The translations under genes and the position numbers were made by a program. Positions 2,511 to 14,634 of a stretch of 27,327 nucleotides of DNA are shown piece after piece. The first letter of the stretch is position 1. The number at the start of each line of letters is the position of its first letter. Where the stretch lies: the IMG/VR virus record IMGVR_UViG_3300005045_000040, positions 1 through 27,327 of that record. One strand, given 5' to 3'. This DNA comes from a virus. The notes under the pieces were generated by a model. It worked only from the letters and a program-made list of their open reading frames with translations. It was not told where the DNA came from and did no database searches.

Positions 2511-2998
2511 GCAGCTTCTTTCATAAACACTATCCAATGGGTCCCTGCTTTTTTACCGGAGGTATTCCCAAACAAAGGTTGTACTGGTGTTAGCGCGAGA
2601 ACCTCCCTTAACTTCACTTGTGTTTCGTTCCACTTGAACACTAGTACGCCGTCGACTTCCAGCACGCGAAAACACTCTGCAAATCCTTGACGAAGATCGT
2701 CGCGCCAATCCTGGCTGAGCTTTCCATACTTGGCGGCAAGCCAGGAGCGTGGGCCTGCGCGTACCAAGTGAGGCGGGTCGAATGCAATCAGCTTGAAAGT
2801 GTCGTCGGCGTAAGGCAGTGCACGGAAGTCCAGCAGCACATCAGGATCAATGCGCAGCGTGCGTGTGCCGCTTGTATTCCCGTGCGACCGGTCGGTCACA
2901 ATAAGCGTCTCGGACCGACGATCTCCAAACACAGCACTCGGGTGGCCACGATCAAACCACATCATTCGACTGCCGCAGCATGGGTCTAATATTTTCAT
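2507..2998 (-). CDS. SAM-dependent DNA methyltransferase, adenine-type (163 aa)
   Basis: The product opens with a SAM-binding motif I (MKILDPCCGSRMMWFD, residues 1-16). At 73-77 it carries FDPPH, a variant of the DPPY/NPPY catalytic motif of amino-methyltransferases. The segment FAECFRVLEVDGVLVFKWNE fits the later strands of the Rossmann fold. At 163 aa it is a minimal enzyme with no obvious target-recognition domain, as in many phage stand-alone methyltransferases. Known family members modify DNA adenine or cytosine amino groups, probably to protect phage DNA from host restriction. Histidine in place of Tyr in the catalytic motif is seen in some phage enzymes but leaves specificity open. The ATG overlaps the stop of the upstream methyltransferase frame (ATGA). 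Confidence 0.75.
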   Translation of the reverse strand: MKILDPCCGSRMMWFDRGHPSAVFGDRRSETLIVTDRSHGNTSGTRTLRIDPDVLLDFRALPYADDTFKLIAFDPPHLVRAGPRSWLAAKYGKLSQDWRDDLRQGFAECFRVLEVDGVLVFKWNETQVKLREVLALTPVQPLFGNTSGKKAGTHWIVFMKEAA

Positions 2999-4317
2999 GC
3001 AGTCTCCAGTTCGGCCACTTCATGGCGCGCAGTTTGTGTTTGTTTCATAAATCCTGCTCTGCGAATAAGTTGCACAACTGCTGTTGCAGCGCACAGCGCC
3101 ACAACGCCGTTGCCAACGCACTTGAGGCGTGCGGCTCGGCAATCGTCCATGTTGAAGGCCAGCCCATTAACCACGCCCCGAAAAGCGGGTTCAAGTGCTG
3201 GCGCGAGCTGGGGGTTTCCGCCGAGGATTCCTGCCCATCGCGGGTCGGCTGGGCCAGGGGCGAATAGGCCACAAAGTTGGCTAGTTGACCCATATGCTTC
3301 CTGCCCCCCCCCGGTGACTGTCGCGTGCTGTTCCGAGTTCGGACCCTTGCTGTCGCGGGCGGCTGGTGTCGGCCAGTGTTGTGCTGCACTCACCAATTCC
3401 GGAAACTCGCGCATCGAAACTTGGCCGCGCTTCTCCGCATCGTTCGCCCGTGGTGTTGGCCATGAAACCAGTATTTCCTCCATCCGGTTGCGAAAGTCCC
3501 CACTGATCTGGCCATGGCTGTTGTCCCCGGTACCCACTTGTGGCGTCGGCCAGTACCGAGGCTGCGATTCCAGCCCCACCGTGCGCTTCTGGCCATCCTC
3601 TGTCATACCCTTGCTGGCCACCAGTTCCGGCGACACTGAGCGCCCGCCGTTCGGCACGTTCGGCGTGAGCCACATCTTCACGTCCAGAGTCAGAGCCGAA
3701 TTGCGTTCGCCCTGTCCGCTGCGCTCCAATGCCGTCGGCGGCGTCCAGTTGTCGCCAGGCCCAGCAGAACCACCGCGACCGGCCATGACTGGCACCCACG
3801 TCGGACGCTGAAAGAGTGAGCCATTCCGCATTCCACCCGCGGTCGGCCAGTTCTCCCAGGACGCGGGCGGCCGCGCGCTCGTCGAGAGCCCCTTCGGCTT
3901 CGTCCACAACGGAGGCGGTGGCAGAAGCGATGCCTGCGACGTTCTCCAAAAACAGGCATCTCGCACCGCAAGCGTCGGCAATATCGACGATATTGAAGAA
4001 CAGGCCGGAGCGTGAGCCGTCGAGCCCTGCGCGTCGGCCGGCGAGTGACAAGTCTTGGCACGGGAAGCCCGCAGCGATGCAATCCACTGCGCCACGCCAA
4101 GCTGCGCCGTCGAAGGTGAGTAGGTCGGACCAGACAGGTGCCGCATCCAGGGAGCCTTCTTCCATGCGCGCAACCAGGACGCTGGCGGCGTATGCTTCCC
4201 GCTCAAGGTATGCAATGGTGCGATGCGTGCGGCCCAGGTGGGCGAGCCCGGCTCGCAGTCCTTCACCAAGCATTCCGACACCTGCGCAGATTTCGATGGT
4301 ATGAATGTCCATGACAT
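2995..4317 (-). CDS. Alternate-frame ORF carrying C5-methyltransferase motifs IX-X; upstream part overprints the methyltransferase
   Basis: This frame is +1 relative to the methyltransferase frame and stays open for the whole gene (to 4410 upstream). Its last ~100 codons are the true methyltransferase C-terminus: WAGILGGNPQLAPALEP, FRGVVNGLAFNMDD, then RLKCVGNGVVAL (motif X). Upstream it holds WPTP-type repeats (YWPTPQVGTG, SWPTPRANDAEKR, HWPTPAARDSKG), a pattern I recall in annotated phage proteins. The possible ATG at 4317 has AAAGGCGG about 8 nt upstream, better spaced than for the methyltransferase ATG at 4312. I believe the 2995-3303 part is coding as the methyltransferase end. Independent expression of the rest is uncertain. 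Confidence 0.4.
   Translation of the reverse strand: MSWTFIPSKSAQVSECLVKDCEPGSPTWAARIAPLHTLSGKHTPPASWLRAWKKAPWMRHLSGPTYSPSTAQLGVAQWIASLRASRAKTCHSPADAQGSTAHAPACSSISSILPTLAVRDACFWRTSQASLLPPPPLWTKPKGLSTSARPPASWENWPTAGGMRNGSLFQRPTWVPVMAGRGGSAGPGDNWTPPTALERSGQGERNSALTLDVKMWLTPNVPNGGRSVSPELVASKGMTEDGQKRTVGLESQPRYWPTPQVGTGDNSHGQISGDFRNRMEEILVSWPTPRANDAEKRGQVSMREFPELVSAAQHWPTPAARDSKGPNSEQHATVTGGGQEAYGSTSQLCGLFAPGPADPRWAGILGGNPQLAPALEPAFRGVVNGLAFNMDDCRAARLKCVGNGVVALCAATAVVQLIRRAGFMKQTQTARHEVAELETA
3281..4312 (-). CDS. DNA (cytosine-5) methyltransferase, motifs I-VIII (frame ends after a G9 tract)
   Basis: The 343-aa frame has clear C5-methyltransferase motifs: motif I (IEICAGVGMLGEGLRAGL, residues 6-23), catalytic motif IV (GFPCQDLSLAG, Cys85), motif VI (FLENVAGI, 121-128) and a motif VIII-like segment (GASHGRSRWF, 173-182). 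Motifs IX-X are missing: the frame stops at 3281, seven codons after a nine-G tract. The missing end, including the motif X segment RLKCVGNGVVAL, continues in the +1 frame to 2995. With eight Gs the gene would be one 438-aa enzyme, normal for the family. The variable region holds repeated L/M-A-D/N-A/T units typical of high-GC phage enzymes. It is in an operon with an adenine-type methyltransferase. The N-terminal half is certain; whether an active enzyme is made depends on slippage, a length variant or a sequence error. Confidence 0.8.
   Translation of the reverse strand: MDIHTIEICAGVGMLGEGLRAGLAHLGRTHRTIAYLEREAYAASVLVARMEEGSLDAAPVWSDLLTFDGAAWRGAVDCIAAGFPCQDLSLAGRRAGLDGSRSGLFFNIVDIADACGARCLFLENVAGIASATASVVDEAEGALDERAAARVLGELADRGWNAEWLTLSASDVGASHGRSRWFCWAWRQLDAADGIGAQRTGRTQFGSDSGREDVAHAERAERRALSVAGTGGQQGYDRGWPEAHGGAGIAASVLADATSGYRGQQPWPDQWGLSQPDGGNTGFMANTTGERCGEARPSFDARVSGIGECSTTLADTSRPRQQGSELGTARDSHRGGAGSIWVN
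3304..3312 (-). repeat. Nine-G homopolymer tract in the cytosine methyltransferase
   Basis: Nine consecutive C on the plus strand, read as G9 in the gene. It lies exactly where the methyltransferase must change frame: codons CAC-CGG-GGG-GGG-GCA lead to a stop at 3281, while loss of one G gives CGG-GGG-GGG-CAG and enters the motif IX-X frame. Such tracts are known contingency sites for slipped-strand mispairing and are also a common place for sequencing errors. Confidence 0.9.
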
Positions 4318-4366
4318 TACGCCGCCTTTTGTGTCTGGCTGTGGATAGGCAGCAGGTATTGAGGGG

Positions 4367-4753
4367 TCAGCATGACACCCCCCGGCTTTGGGTTTGCGCA
4401 TTGCTCTCATTGCGGCAATAGCCGCCCGTGCCGATCACCAGCACCGGCTGGTCGCGCCAACTGATGCGCGCGGGCAGCACGATGCGCGCTTGCTGCTGCT
4501 TGTCTTGGTAGCTTTTGAGCGCCAGGCGCCCGCTGTCGGTGATGGCGTAGAAAAATTTACTTTTATCGCCGCGCGTGACCGACACCAACTCACGCTCGCG
4601 CAGGCAGCTCATGTGTGCCCAACACTTTTGTTTTGAAAAGCCGGTGGCCTGCTCGATTTGCTCATTCGTCATGGCGGTTTTTTGGCTCACCAGGGCGGCC
4701 AGCATGGCGCTCTGCTGGACGTTGATGATGGCGGGGATTCGGTTAGCGGTCAT
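4367..4753 (-). CDS. Winged helix-turn-helix regulator-like protein (128 aa)
   Basis: Residues about 14-80 read as a MarR/ArsR-like winged helix: SAMLAALVSQKTAMTNEQIE, then the recognition region ATGFSKQKCWAHMSCLRERE, then the wing LVSVTRGDKSKFFYAITDSG. The C-terminal 50 residues are basic or polar and end in QTQSRGVSC with no known domain. The ATG overlaps the upstream stop as ATGA. It could regulate the operon or act as a DNA-binding accessory factor. The target is unknown. No operator-like palindrome is visible next to it. Confidence 0.65.
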   Translation of the reverse strand: MTANRIPAIINVQQSAMLAALVSQKTAMTNEQIEQATGFSKQKCWAHMSCLRERELVSVTRGDKSKFFYAITDSGRLALKSYQDKQQQARIVLPARISWRDQPVLVIGTGGYCRNESNAQTQSRGVSC

Positions 4754-11630: not shown

Positions 11631-12616
11631 TGGACAACTACGCTGAGGTGGTTCACCAAATGCAGGCCTTTGGCGTGGTTTTCCGCGACAAGGATTTGCC
11701 CTTGGTGGTAGATGAACCCAAGCGCCGGGGCTGTGGCCTCAAAGGCAAGTGGTGGTACTGGCTGCGTACCTTTCGCCCCGATGCCGGGGGCAATTTCATT
11801 GTGGGCCGGTTTGGCAGCTACAAGTCGGGCTAGAGTGAAAAGGTCGATGTCGACTGGAAGCCGCTTAACGACGCCGAACAAAAACGCCGCCAGGCCGAAC
11901 ATGACGCCGCTCGGGCGGTGGCCACCGCCGCCCGCGTGGCTGAGGCCGAGCTAGCTGCGCTCAGTGCTACTGACCTGTGGCGCCGGGCGTCAAAGCAGGG
12001 CAGTTCACCCTACCTGGCGCGCAAGGGTGTATTGGGTGAGGCCTGCCGCTACTTGCCCGGTGGTGAGCTACTGGTGCCGCTGTTGCGCTACGACTGGCCT
12101 CGTGATCAGGCGCTGCGGGGCGTGCAGCGCATCAAGCCCGATGGCGGCAAGATGTTCACACCGGGTTTTGCCAAGGCGGGCTGCGCTGTACGTCTGGGTG
12201 ACGCTGTGGATGGATTCATCATTTTGATTTGCGAGGGCTATGCCACCGGCCTGACGCTGCGCATGGCTACGCAGTACACGCTGGCGGTGTACGTGGCGCT
12301 GGACGCTGGCAACCTGCAGCATGTGGTGCCCCTGGTGCGCTCAATGCACCCAACATGCCGAATTCTGATTTGTGCCGACGATGATTACCGCACCCGCGAC
12401 CATGCGGGCGCTCTCAATAACCCTGGGCGCGCAGCGGCGCTCAAAGTTGCCAAGACGGTGGTGGGTTGTGACCTGCTTTGGCCCATTTTCCCAATGGCAG
12501 GCCGCGGCCCCAAAGACACCGATTTCAATGACCTGCACCATGCACATGGGTTAGAGGTGGTTACCCGCCAGATTTCCAGCGTGCTGCGTGCCATAAGGAC
12601 AAAACACCATGGTTGA
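11630..12616 (+). pseudogene. Toprim-domain phage primase interrupted by an in-frame TAG
   Basis: From ATG 11630 the frame reads KWWYWLRTFRPDAGGNFIVG, then GSYKSG, and stops at TAG (11831-11833, codon 68). Translation continues in the same frame as SEKVDVDWKPLNDAEQKRRQ and on through a long linker. A Toprim domain follows with the catalytic Glu in ICEGYAT (residue ~202) and the acidic motif ICADDD (250-252), then FNDLHHAHGLEV. Homologs I recall have Gln at the stop position (GSYKSGQSEKV type), so a single CAG-to-TAG change explains it. The full product would be 328 aa. The tail could restart at ATG 11918 and keep the Toprim domain without the N-terminal part. It may still be partly active, suppressed, or a sequence error. 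Confidence 0.75.
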
Positions 12617-14147
12617 TGACGCGGAATTACCGCCACAACCGCCCATGTCCGGAACACCACCGGCTGAGGCAGTTACACCCCCAACTGCACAGGTTTTAAG
12701 CCTGGCTGACGCGGCCAAATCCAAGGCGGCCAAGTTGGCCCCTGCACCGCTGTCAGGCGCGAATGCGCTTGATGTGGGGGCCGGGGGGGATACCAAGCCT
12801 GCCAAAAAGCAAGAAAAAACCATTGACTGGGGTTTGTACAACAACCTACTGGAAAACTTTGCCCTGATCTATGGCACTGACACGGTGTGGGACGGCTCCC
12901 AGCGCCTGATCATGAAGCTGGCCAACATGGCGCACGCGCATGGTAGCGACATGGTCAAGATGTGGAAGGGCGACGTGCGCCGACGCACGGTGCTGCAGCA
13001 AGATGTGGTGTTTGACCCCACTTGCAAGGCAGACCTGGTGCGCTGCATCAACCTGTTTGACGGCATCGCCATGGTGCCCAAAGAGGGCGATGTGAATCCA
13101 ATTCTTGATCTGGTGCGCTACCTTACCAGCCGTTCGCATGAGGACTACTTCGATTCCGACAAAATTATGCATTGGCTGCTGCAGTGGCTGGCTTACCCGC
13201 TGCAGCATGTGGGTGCGAAGCTGCGTACGGCTGTTGTGATGCATGGTGATGAAGGCGCTGGGAAAAACTTTCTGTTTGACCTGGTCGCCGCGATCTACGG
13301 CAAATACGGCTGTCTGGTGGGCCAGGATGAGCTTGAAGATAAGTTCAATGACTGGCGCTCCTGCAAACTGTTTGTGGTCGGCGATGAGGTGTCTAGTCGG
13401 CAAGAGCTGGTGCATAACAAAAACCGTCTCAAGGCTTTGATCACTTCGCCATCGGTGCAGATCAACCCCAAGAATTTACCCCGGCGCGAAGAATCGAACC
13501 ACATGAATGTGGCGTTTCTGTCCAACGAACTCACGCCGCTGGCTATGGACAACAGCGACCGGCGCTATCTGGTCATTTACACCCCACGCGCCAAAGATTT
13601 TGAGTATTACCGAGCGCTTGGAAAATGGCGCGATAACGGGGGCACAGAGGCGTTTTATCACTTCTTGCAGACCTACCCATTGGATGACTTTGACCCATTC
13701 GCCCCAGCCCCGCAAACACTGGCTAAGCGTGACCTGATCGACATCAACCGCAAAAGCCCCGAACTGTTTTGGCTGGCTTGGAGCCAGGGTGAAATTGACC
13801 TGCCGTACTGGCCCTGTGCCAGCACCCAGGCCTACCGAGGCTACATCAAGTGGTGTCAGCGCACCGGCGACCGATTTCCCTTCAAGCAAAACATGTTTAC
13901 CCGAACGCTGCTGCGCATCAGTGAGTCTGAGGGGCCGCAGGTGCGCGAGAAAGTCATGGCACCCAAAGATGAAATGGGCGTCAAAAAATCGGAACGCATG
14001 CTGCTCACACTTGACCCACCACCAGAACGAAAAGAGGGCGAGTGGGCTACCGAAAGCCGCGAAGCGTTTGAGAAAGAACTGCGCAAATACATCGGTAATA
14101 GCTTCCCCCATTCCCCCAATAGTGGCGAAAACGGAGATGAACAGTGA
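12609..14147 (+). CDS. Phage SF3-type replicative helicase, D5/DUF5906 family (512 aa)
   Basis: A proline/alanine-rich N-terminal linker (1-70) precedes the body. The Walker A is GDEGAGKN (213-220), the usual form for this family, with Asn in place of the Thr/Ser. Walker B is LFVVGDEVSS (Asp259-Glu260). A third motif is visible in NHMNVAFLSNELTPLAMDNS, near the SF3 motif C Asn and the arginine-finger region DNSDRRYLV. The enzyme should unwind DNA at the phage origin as a hexamer. Its start overlaps the primase stop by 8 nt, so the two are expressed together. The repeat region right after the gene fits its target. Confidence 0.85.
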   Translation: MVDDAELPPQPPMSGTPPAEAVTPPTAQVLSLADAAKSKAAKLAPAPLSGANALDVGAGGDTKPAKKQEKTIDWGLYNNLLENFALIYGTDTVWDGSQRLIMKLANMAHAHGSDMVKMWKGDVRRRTVLQQDVVFDPTCKADLVRCINLFDGIAMVPKEGDVNPILDLVRYLTSRSHEDYFDSDKIMHWLLQWLAYPLQHVGAKLRTAVVMHGDEGAGKNFLFDLVAAIYGKYGCLVGQDELEDKFNDWRSCKLFVVGDEVSSRQELVHNKNRLKALITSPSVQINPKNLPRREESNHMNVAFLSNELTPLAMDNSDRRYLVIYTPRAKDFEYYRALGKWRDNGGTEAFYHFLQTYPLDDFDPFAPAPQTLAKRDLIDINRKSPELFWLAWSQGEIDLPYWPCASTQAYRGYIKWCQRTGDRFPFKQNMFTRTLLRISESEGPQVREKVMAPKDEMGVKKSERMLLTLDPPPERKEGEWATESREAFEKELRKYIGNSFPHSPNSGENGDEQ

Positions 14148-14161
14148 AAAACACCCAAATT

Positions 14162-14385
14162 AGTTACGCGGTTACAGAATGGCGTAACTCCGAAACCCAA
14201 TGCCAGCGCGGGAAGTTACGCGGTTACGCGGTTACGCATGGCCCCTATACATATGTGTGCGTACATGGGCGCATGTGTGGGTGCGTACGTGCATGTATGC
14301 GCAACCCTAGCGTAACCGCGTAACCGCGTAACTCATCAATGTTCATGCGGGTTTGCGAGTTACGCGTGCGTGTAACCGCGTAACT
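14162..14385. repeat. Nested GGTTACGC direct and inverted repeats, candidate replication origin
   Basis: AGTTACGC plus two GGTTACGC-type units (14214-14237) is the exact reverse complement of 14310-14333, a 24-bp perfect inverted repeat around 72 nt. Outside it, AGTTACGCGGTTAC (14162-14175) is the exact reverse complement of 14372-14385. Local hairpins also form: AGTTACGC with GCGTAACT (14182-14189), and AGTTACGCG (14358-14366) with CGCGTAACT (14377-14385). The 72-nt centre is alternating purine-pyrimidine. It occupies the whole 268-nt gap after the helicase and has no gene. Iterons plus a cruciform next to primase and helicase suggest an origin, which is an inference. Confidence 0.75.
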
Positions 14386-14415
14386 CACTGTTTTATTGTT
14401 TTAAAAGGAAAAAAA

Positions 14416-14634
14416 GTGAAGAAGAGGTTGATCAGTTGCACTCAGGAAAACCGCCAAGCCATGGCCGCTGCCGTCAAGGCTTGGCCAGCGCTTCATGCAT
14501 TGGTGCAGCACCTTCAAGCCCAAGACCTTTTCCCAGGCCTGCGCGCCATGCGCATCACGCTCACAGGCAGCGAAGCGTTCGTGTCACAGGGGTTAGGTGC
14601 CATCGCAGCCATCAACGCAACCAAGGCCGATTAA
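14416..14634 (+). CDS. Small hypothetical phage protein (72 aa, GTG start)
   Basis: The GTG at 14416 has AAAGGA 6-7 nt upstream. The frame is open from 14353, but the extra residues come from the repeat region, so the GTG is preferred. The product (starting MKKRLISCTQENRQAMAAAV) is helical and ends AAINATKAD. It lies between the origin candidate and the first late gene, 10 nt before the next ATG. Not recognised. Confidence 0.55.
   Translation: MKKRLISCTQENRQAMAAAVKAWPALHALVQHLQAQDLFPGLRAMRITLTGSEAFVSQGLGAIAAINATKAD

Follow-up and report, generated by a model that had tools for sequence, protein, structure and literature searches.

A nested inverted iteron array behind a phage SF3 helicase gene as a probable replication origin of the P4 and phage-inducible-island kind

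Known origins of SF3 primase-helicases and the present locus

The origins of the phage-inducible islands (EcCICFT073, SaPIs) lie immediately 3' of the SF3 primase-helicase gene and consist of short iterons in two opposed sets, one on either side of a core that is reported to be AT-rich (PMC6092414, available portion). In the available portions of the papers concerned, the rep-ori of EcCICFT073 was tested on a plasmid (PMC6092414), the C-terminal domain of SaPI Rep reads iterons downstream of its own gene, apparently as two hexamers (PMC7581432), and the CTR of NrS-1 polymerase forms a hexameric ring (PMC7102993). P4 encodes its alpha protein (777 residues) as a single polypeptide with Toprim and DUF5906 families; its ori1 holds six 8-bp type I repeats (unit TGTTCACC) in the order <<<><<, and crr, which by annotation lies 3' of alpha, is made of two 120-bp direct repeats about 4.7 kb from ori1. 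In a further arrangement, replication of pRN1 requires a stem-loop 3' of orf904, an origin that its authors describe as having no iteron structure, and a stem-loop 3' of the primase gene of phage BIP-1 has been proposed as an origin (all PMC4234260, available portion).

The DNA analysed here, called the window throughout, is an IMG/VR virus record of 27,327 b from a tailed phage. Unlike the island satellites, the carrier is a full-size phage with genes for the terminase large subunit, portal and head-tail joining to the right of the array described below, the terminase genes being 1.2 kb downstream of it. The genes ahead of the replication pair include a regulator-like one (minus strand) and a CII-like one (plus strand); the window also holds a DNA methyltransferase gene (2995-4410, minus strand; phrog_29583, phrog_1008). 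The features of the replication region are as follows.

11918 to 12616, plus strand: Toprim primase half, P4-alpha-like, of a split gene (Toprim_3, 38.4 bits, cut-off 27.2; phrog_2249 DNA primase profile, 109-327 of 802)
12609 to 14147, plus strand: DUF5906 SF3 helicase, the proposed initiator (PF19263, 71.3 bits, cut-off 27.6; phrog_2249 profile, 395-772)
13719 to 14093, plus strand: helicase C-terminal domain (residues 371-495), with a winged-helix-like fold and a proposed role in reading the 8-bp unit
14162 to 14237, plus strand: left half-array, sites at 14163, 14171 (two mismatches), 14182 (inverted), 14215, 14223 and 14231
14238 to 14309, no strand: core, 72 nt of alternating purine-pyrimidine, proposed melting site
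14310 to 14385, minus strand: right half-array, sites at 14310, 14318, 14326, 14359 (inverted), 14370 (one mismatch) and 14378
14214-14237 and 14310-14333: inner arms, 24 nt, 100% complementary, 72 nt between them
14162-14198 and 14349-14385: outer arms, 37 nt, 81% complementary
14162-14175 and 14372-14385: perfect part of the outer arms, their first 14 nt
14163 (GTTACGC) and 14182 (GCGTAAC): left end hairpin
14357-14366 and 14377-14386: right end hairpin

The Toprim protein and the DUF5906 helicase match different halves of a single primase family, phrog_2249. Many relatives have, in the helicase frame, a single long protein (about 760-820 residues), close to the length of P4 alpha. Relatives match the Toprim protein from about residue 19, and its true start may therefore lie downstream of 11918.

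The array fills the gap between the helicase gene and the probable start of the next gene, at about 14416; it begins 14 nt past the helicase stop codon, whose last base is 14147. A scan for GTTACGC with up to two mismatches, in which copies fitting the mirror layout were kept, gives six 8-bp sites, the 72-nt core and six further sites in the orientation >><>>>|<<<><<, provided that one two-mismatch unit on the left and one one-mismatch unit on the right are counted. Site offsets are 0, 8, 19, 52, 60 and 68 in the left half and 0, 8, 16, 49, 60 and 68 in the right. Two-mismatch matches that overlap real sites or fall inside the core were excluded from the count, and the core holds a single one-mismatch match, at 14299. 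The nested perfect repeats, the smaller hairpins at both ends, the position directly after the primase and helicase genes and the near symmetry about 14273 that the original prediction had described are all present, both arm pairs sharing a centre at 14273.5. The repeats are not due to chance: the 224 nt of the array contain 10 exact 7-mers, compared with a maximum of 4 and a mean of 2.0 in 2000 mononucleotide shuffles, and 224-nt stretches clear of the array elsewhere in the window never contain more than 4.

Two other elements adjoin the sites. One, of the type AACCC-AATGCC-GCGCGGG, lies between the outer and inner sites of each half (14189-14213 and 14334-14356); by eye it recurs in many relatives, Pseudomonas phage pAN among them, and in some cases (L112) the copies in the two halves point the same way. 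The other is an A- and T-rich tract directly to the right of the array (14387-14416), also seen by eye in relatives and possibly serving as a ribosome site or in melting.

The original prediction had found no named type to match this arrangement, but the P4 and phage-inducible-island origins of SF3 primase-helicases do match it. As in the islands, the array sits immediately 3' of the SF3 helicase gene, with opposed iteron sets around a core. The closest layout is that of the CFT073 island, >><>>>|<<><< (unit TGTCTACC), directly 3' of a primase gene carrying D5_N, DUF5906 and Pox_D5; we take this element to be EcCICFT073 from its position and gene content rather than from a record label. Its core is about 25 nt and non-alternating, whereas the core here is 72 nt, alternating and not AT-rich. 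With P4 the phage has in common the Toprim and DUF5906 families, the 8-bp repeats and a site 3' of the gene, and the six sites of ori1 show the sign order of the right half here, in different letters. The differences from P4 are that the phage has a single inverted array rather than two separated sites, two proteins rather than one, and an alternating core, for which the best 40-nt value in P4 is 0.62. The helicase fold is shared with the NrS-1 polymerase CTR, which is joined to a different primase. The inverted repeat just 3' of the primase-helicase gene also recalls pRN1 and BIP-1 (PMC4234260, available portion), but theirs is an archaeo-eukaryotic primase and the one here is Toprim_3. In BPP-1, a relative of BIP-1, a 9-bp unit stands in an inverted two-plus-two arrangement about 460-600 nt behind bbp29, with bbp28 annotated in between on the opposite strand, so the BIP-1 stem-loop may also be an iteron array.

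That P4 requires, by annotation, a separate crr with the same repeats as its origin allows another reading of the array, as an initiator-binding accessory site (for titration or copy control, or needed in cis like crr) with the true origin elsewhere. We consider this unlikely, as the exact cluster, like its 15-mer, occurs once in the window, and both halves stand together with a distinct core as in the island origins.

Conservation of the array behind homologous helicases

An exact 23-mer of the array was found in 10 IMG/VR stretches, in nine of which the helicase adjoins; one of the nine lies on a contig that does not differ from the window in the genes compared. The tenth (L010) was taken as a chance match, an 8-bp tandem repeat that follows a structural-type gene and has neither symmetry nor helicase. 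A blastn comparison of the array with phages and plasmids gave nothing but short matches, in Klebsiella phages KLB24 and KLB28 and one Streptomyces plasmid.

A second sample, gathered from the helicase, comprised 63 bacterial-genome loci, the best 80 of 228 viral-contig loci and named phages. The 156 loci with a helicase match included 154 with a readable stop, of which 151 were followed by 300 nt or more free of long N runs, and these fell into 107 clusters. Counts of the commonest 7-mer in the 380 nt that surround and follow the helicase stop reach five or more in 93 of 107 non-redundant stretches, compared with 11 of 1070 control stretches from the same loci, and seven or more in 76 of 107 compared with 1 of 1070. 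Two loci (L156 and L157) are undercounted in this test because the filter removed words of only two letter kinds, as their unit is. Median inverted-repeat coverage is 0.29 downstream of the helicase and 0.066 in controls, and the arms have opposite polarity in 89 of the 103 loci with at least five copies. The median unit count is 12 and the modal split 6 + 6, exactly so in 21 of 99 scanned loci, in a scan where about 1.2 false sites are expected per locus. Many loci of the window's clade have the order --+---|+++-++ at near-identical offsets.

The scan assigned no unit in 8 of the 107 loci; by inspection six of them (L052, L071, L082, L119, L156 and L157) have arrays, and those of L031 and L070 are degenerate. 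Behind the related primase gene of the distant Yuavirus M6 homologue there is no such array. Hosts of helicases followed by an array are phages and prophages in Burkholderiales, Stenotrophomonas, Xanthomonas and others. Prophages of Polaromonas sp. CF318 and Paracidovorax wautersii DSM 27981 are among the close relatives. In Stenotrophomonas phage S1 the annotated hypothetical protein gp2 (L154, 2454-2804) overlies the array and is probably not a gene. The search for arrays next to DUF5906 helicases in other phages, proposed as a check by the original prediction, thus found them, and an origin or initiator-binding array is still the best reading of an element that stays behind the helicase from one homologous locus to the next.

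What follows the array varies, the first downstream ORF falling into 23 clusters among 101 loci and 12 among 38 close-clade loci. In L119 the helicase is followed by an extra ORF before the array, which is nonetheless intact, 480-1000 nt behind the stop. The array therefore belongs with the helicase and not with what follows. This bears on two further readings. The position between replication and late genes and the strong hairpins might indicate a transcript element, such as a terminator, an antitermination site or a regulatory RNA, but a promoter and terminator scan found no such site, an Rfam search of 14000-14600 gave four matches (E 0.2 to 0.6), none of them anywhere near its gathering score, and the array stays with the helicase as downstream genes change, even behind the extra ORF of L119; we give this reading hardly any credence. 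The nearby terminase genes could likewise point to a packaging site, or to one for partition or recombination. The arrays of H4907 and pAN, however, precede antitermination, lysis or hypothetical genes rather than terminase, and the unit letters track the helicase, making such a site extremely improbable.

Unit letters and the protein that may read them

The layout persists across helicase lineages while the letters of the unit differ between loci, the units including GTTACGC, GTTTACGC, TGTCACGC, GTTGCGC, TGTGCGGG, TGTGCAGGG, TGTGTTGGG and TCAGACAG. Among ten loci with the full pattern, unit identity is 0.82 within loci and 0.63 between loci at the same position. The copies at one locus change together, tandem copies of the same arm included, which fits one protein reading all copies and is not demanded by base pairing alone. 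The alternative is an origin driven by structure, in which the palindrome extrudes a cruciform or stem-loop read by its shape, as proposed for pRN1 and BIP-1. The perfect 24-bp arms and the stem-loop requirement of pRN1 speak for it, but a shape formed by complementary arms leaves the concerted change of same-arm copies unaccounted for, and we regard it as very unlikely. The cruciform of the original prediction is accordingly unneeded; direct copies that co-vary with inverted ones fit protein sites better than base pairing.

Unit divergence follows the C-terminal domain of the helicase more than its ATPase domain. The analysis covered 63 of 66 alignment rows, those with units, and five loci with frame breaks were omitted from the protein set. 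Spearman correlations with unit distance over these 63 loci are 0.60 for the C-terminal domain, 0.54 for the head and 0.41 for the ATPase. With the ATPase held constant the C-terminal signal is 0.49 (0 of 1000 permutations), whereas the ATPase loses its signal, which is no longer significant, once the C-terminal domain is controlled for. In the close clade (29 loci) the C-terminal partial given the ATPase is 0.27 (4 of 1000 permutations), the simple correlation is barely above the permutation maximum (0.327 vs 0.304), and the wing segment 445-470 correlates best (0.41) in an exploratory comparison. These permutations ignore the tree and are hence too generous, and a faster-evolving domain may correlate better for its rate alone.

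The helicase model (pLDDT 87) has as its best structural match the NrS-1 CTR (6k9c_B; Z 26.3, 364 aligned, r.m.s.d. 3.9), followed by the SaPI5 primase-helicase (Z 18.1) and then D5 and E1 types. The C-terminal domain was also folded alone (residues 365-512, pLDDT 89). A Foldseek search with this model gave nothing at or below E 0.001; in VIA-align its top match is the P4 origin-binding domain (1ka8), a weak one at Z 6.8 (<8), with an r.m.s.d. of 3.4 over 81 of 100 aligned and with unrelated winged helices within 1 Z. The model supports a predicted winged helix, and only suggests kinship with the P4 origin-binding domain.

The alternating core and a proposed mode of initiation

Purine and pyrimidine alternate at 80% of steps in the core, and 0 of 5000 shuffles reach 0.80. 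Its two strict alternating runs (14246-14267, 22 nt, and 14281-14303, 23 nt) are the longest in the whole window, where the next longest is 14 nt. For relatives, core analysis was limited to the 80 of 99 loci with a core of 55-110 nt, the remainder having an unreliable automatic split or core length. The median strict run is 25 nt in the close clade and 20 nt over the 80 loci, compared with 6 in controls, and 56 of 80 loci exceed the control's 99th percentile. Alternation is weaker in distant lineages (0.62-0.63) and absent in some (0.31 in L041); P4, the CFT073 island and BPP-1 do not show it, their best 40-nt values being 0.62, 0.62 and 0.54. An AT-rich melting core as in the islands is unsupported: AT content in the close clade (37 loci) is 0.366 in the core and 0.364 in the locus, and over all 80 loci 0.416 and 0.383. 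The core may form Z-DNA or melt easily.

The array is very probably a replication origin of the P4 and phage-inducible-island kind in a full-size phage, at which the SF3 helicase encoded by the phage itself would bind, probably in the form of two hexamers. The winged-helix-like C-terminal domains of one hexamer would read the six sites of one half, and a second hexamer would face the first from the other half-array; the ATPases would then melt the core, the Toprim protein would prime, and host enzymes would complete two forks. A half-array may be one ring's worth of sites, which fits P4, the CFT073 island and this phage. GC skew, looked for as an origin signal, has no clear turn at the array. 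Apart from the BIP-1 proposal, a literature search with most subscription papers outside its reach returned nothing published on the array of these phages. New here would be the setting in full-size phages rather than satellites and the alternating purine-pyrimidine core in place of an AT-rich one. More tentatively, and with doubt prevailing, these loci may form a widespread class of temperate-phage origin in which twelve sites place two SF3 hexamers, six sites each, and the alternating, Z-DNA-prone core, not an AT-rich stretch, opens first.

If that class exists, such a core opening first would amount to a separate mode of origin melting, and it raises the question of whether Z-prone DNA can stand in for an AT-rich melting element. 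Under the origin reading, full-size phages would share a single origin design with P4 and the islands. Nature supplies many variants of the unit, each paired with its helicase, and these would be ready material for studying origin recognition by an SF3 initiator and the loading of two rings; a repeat array behind the helicase may serve as a simple rule for locating origins in uncultured phages.
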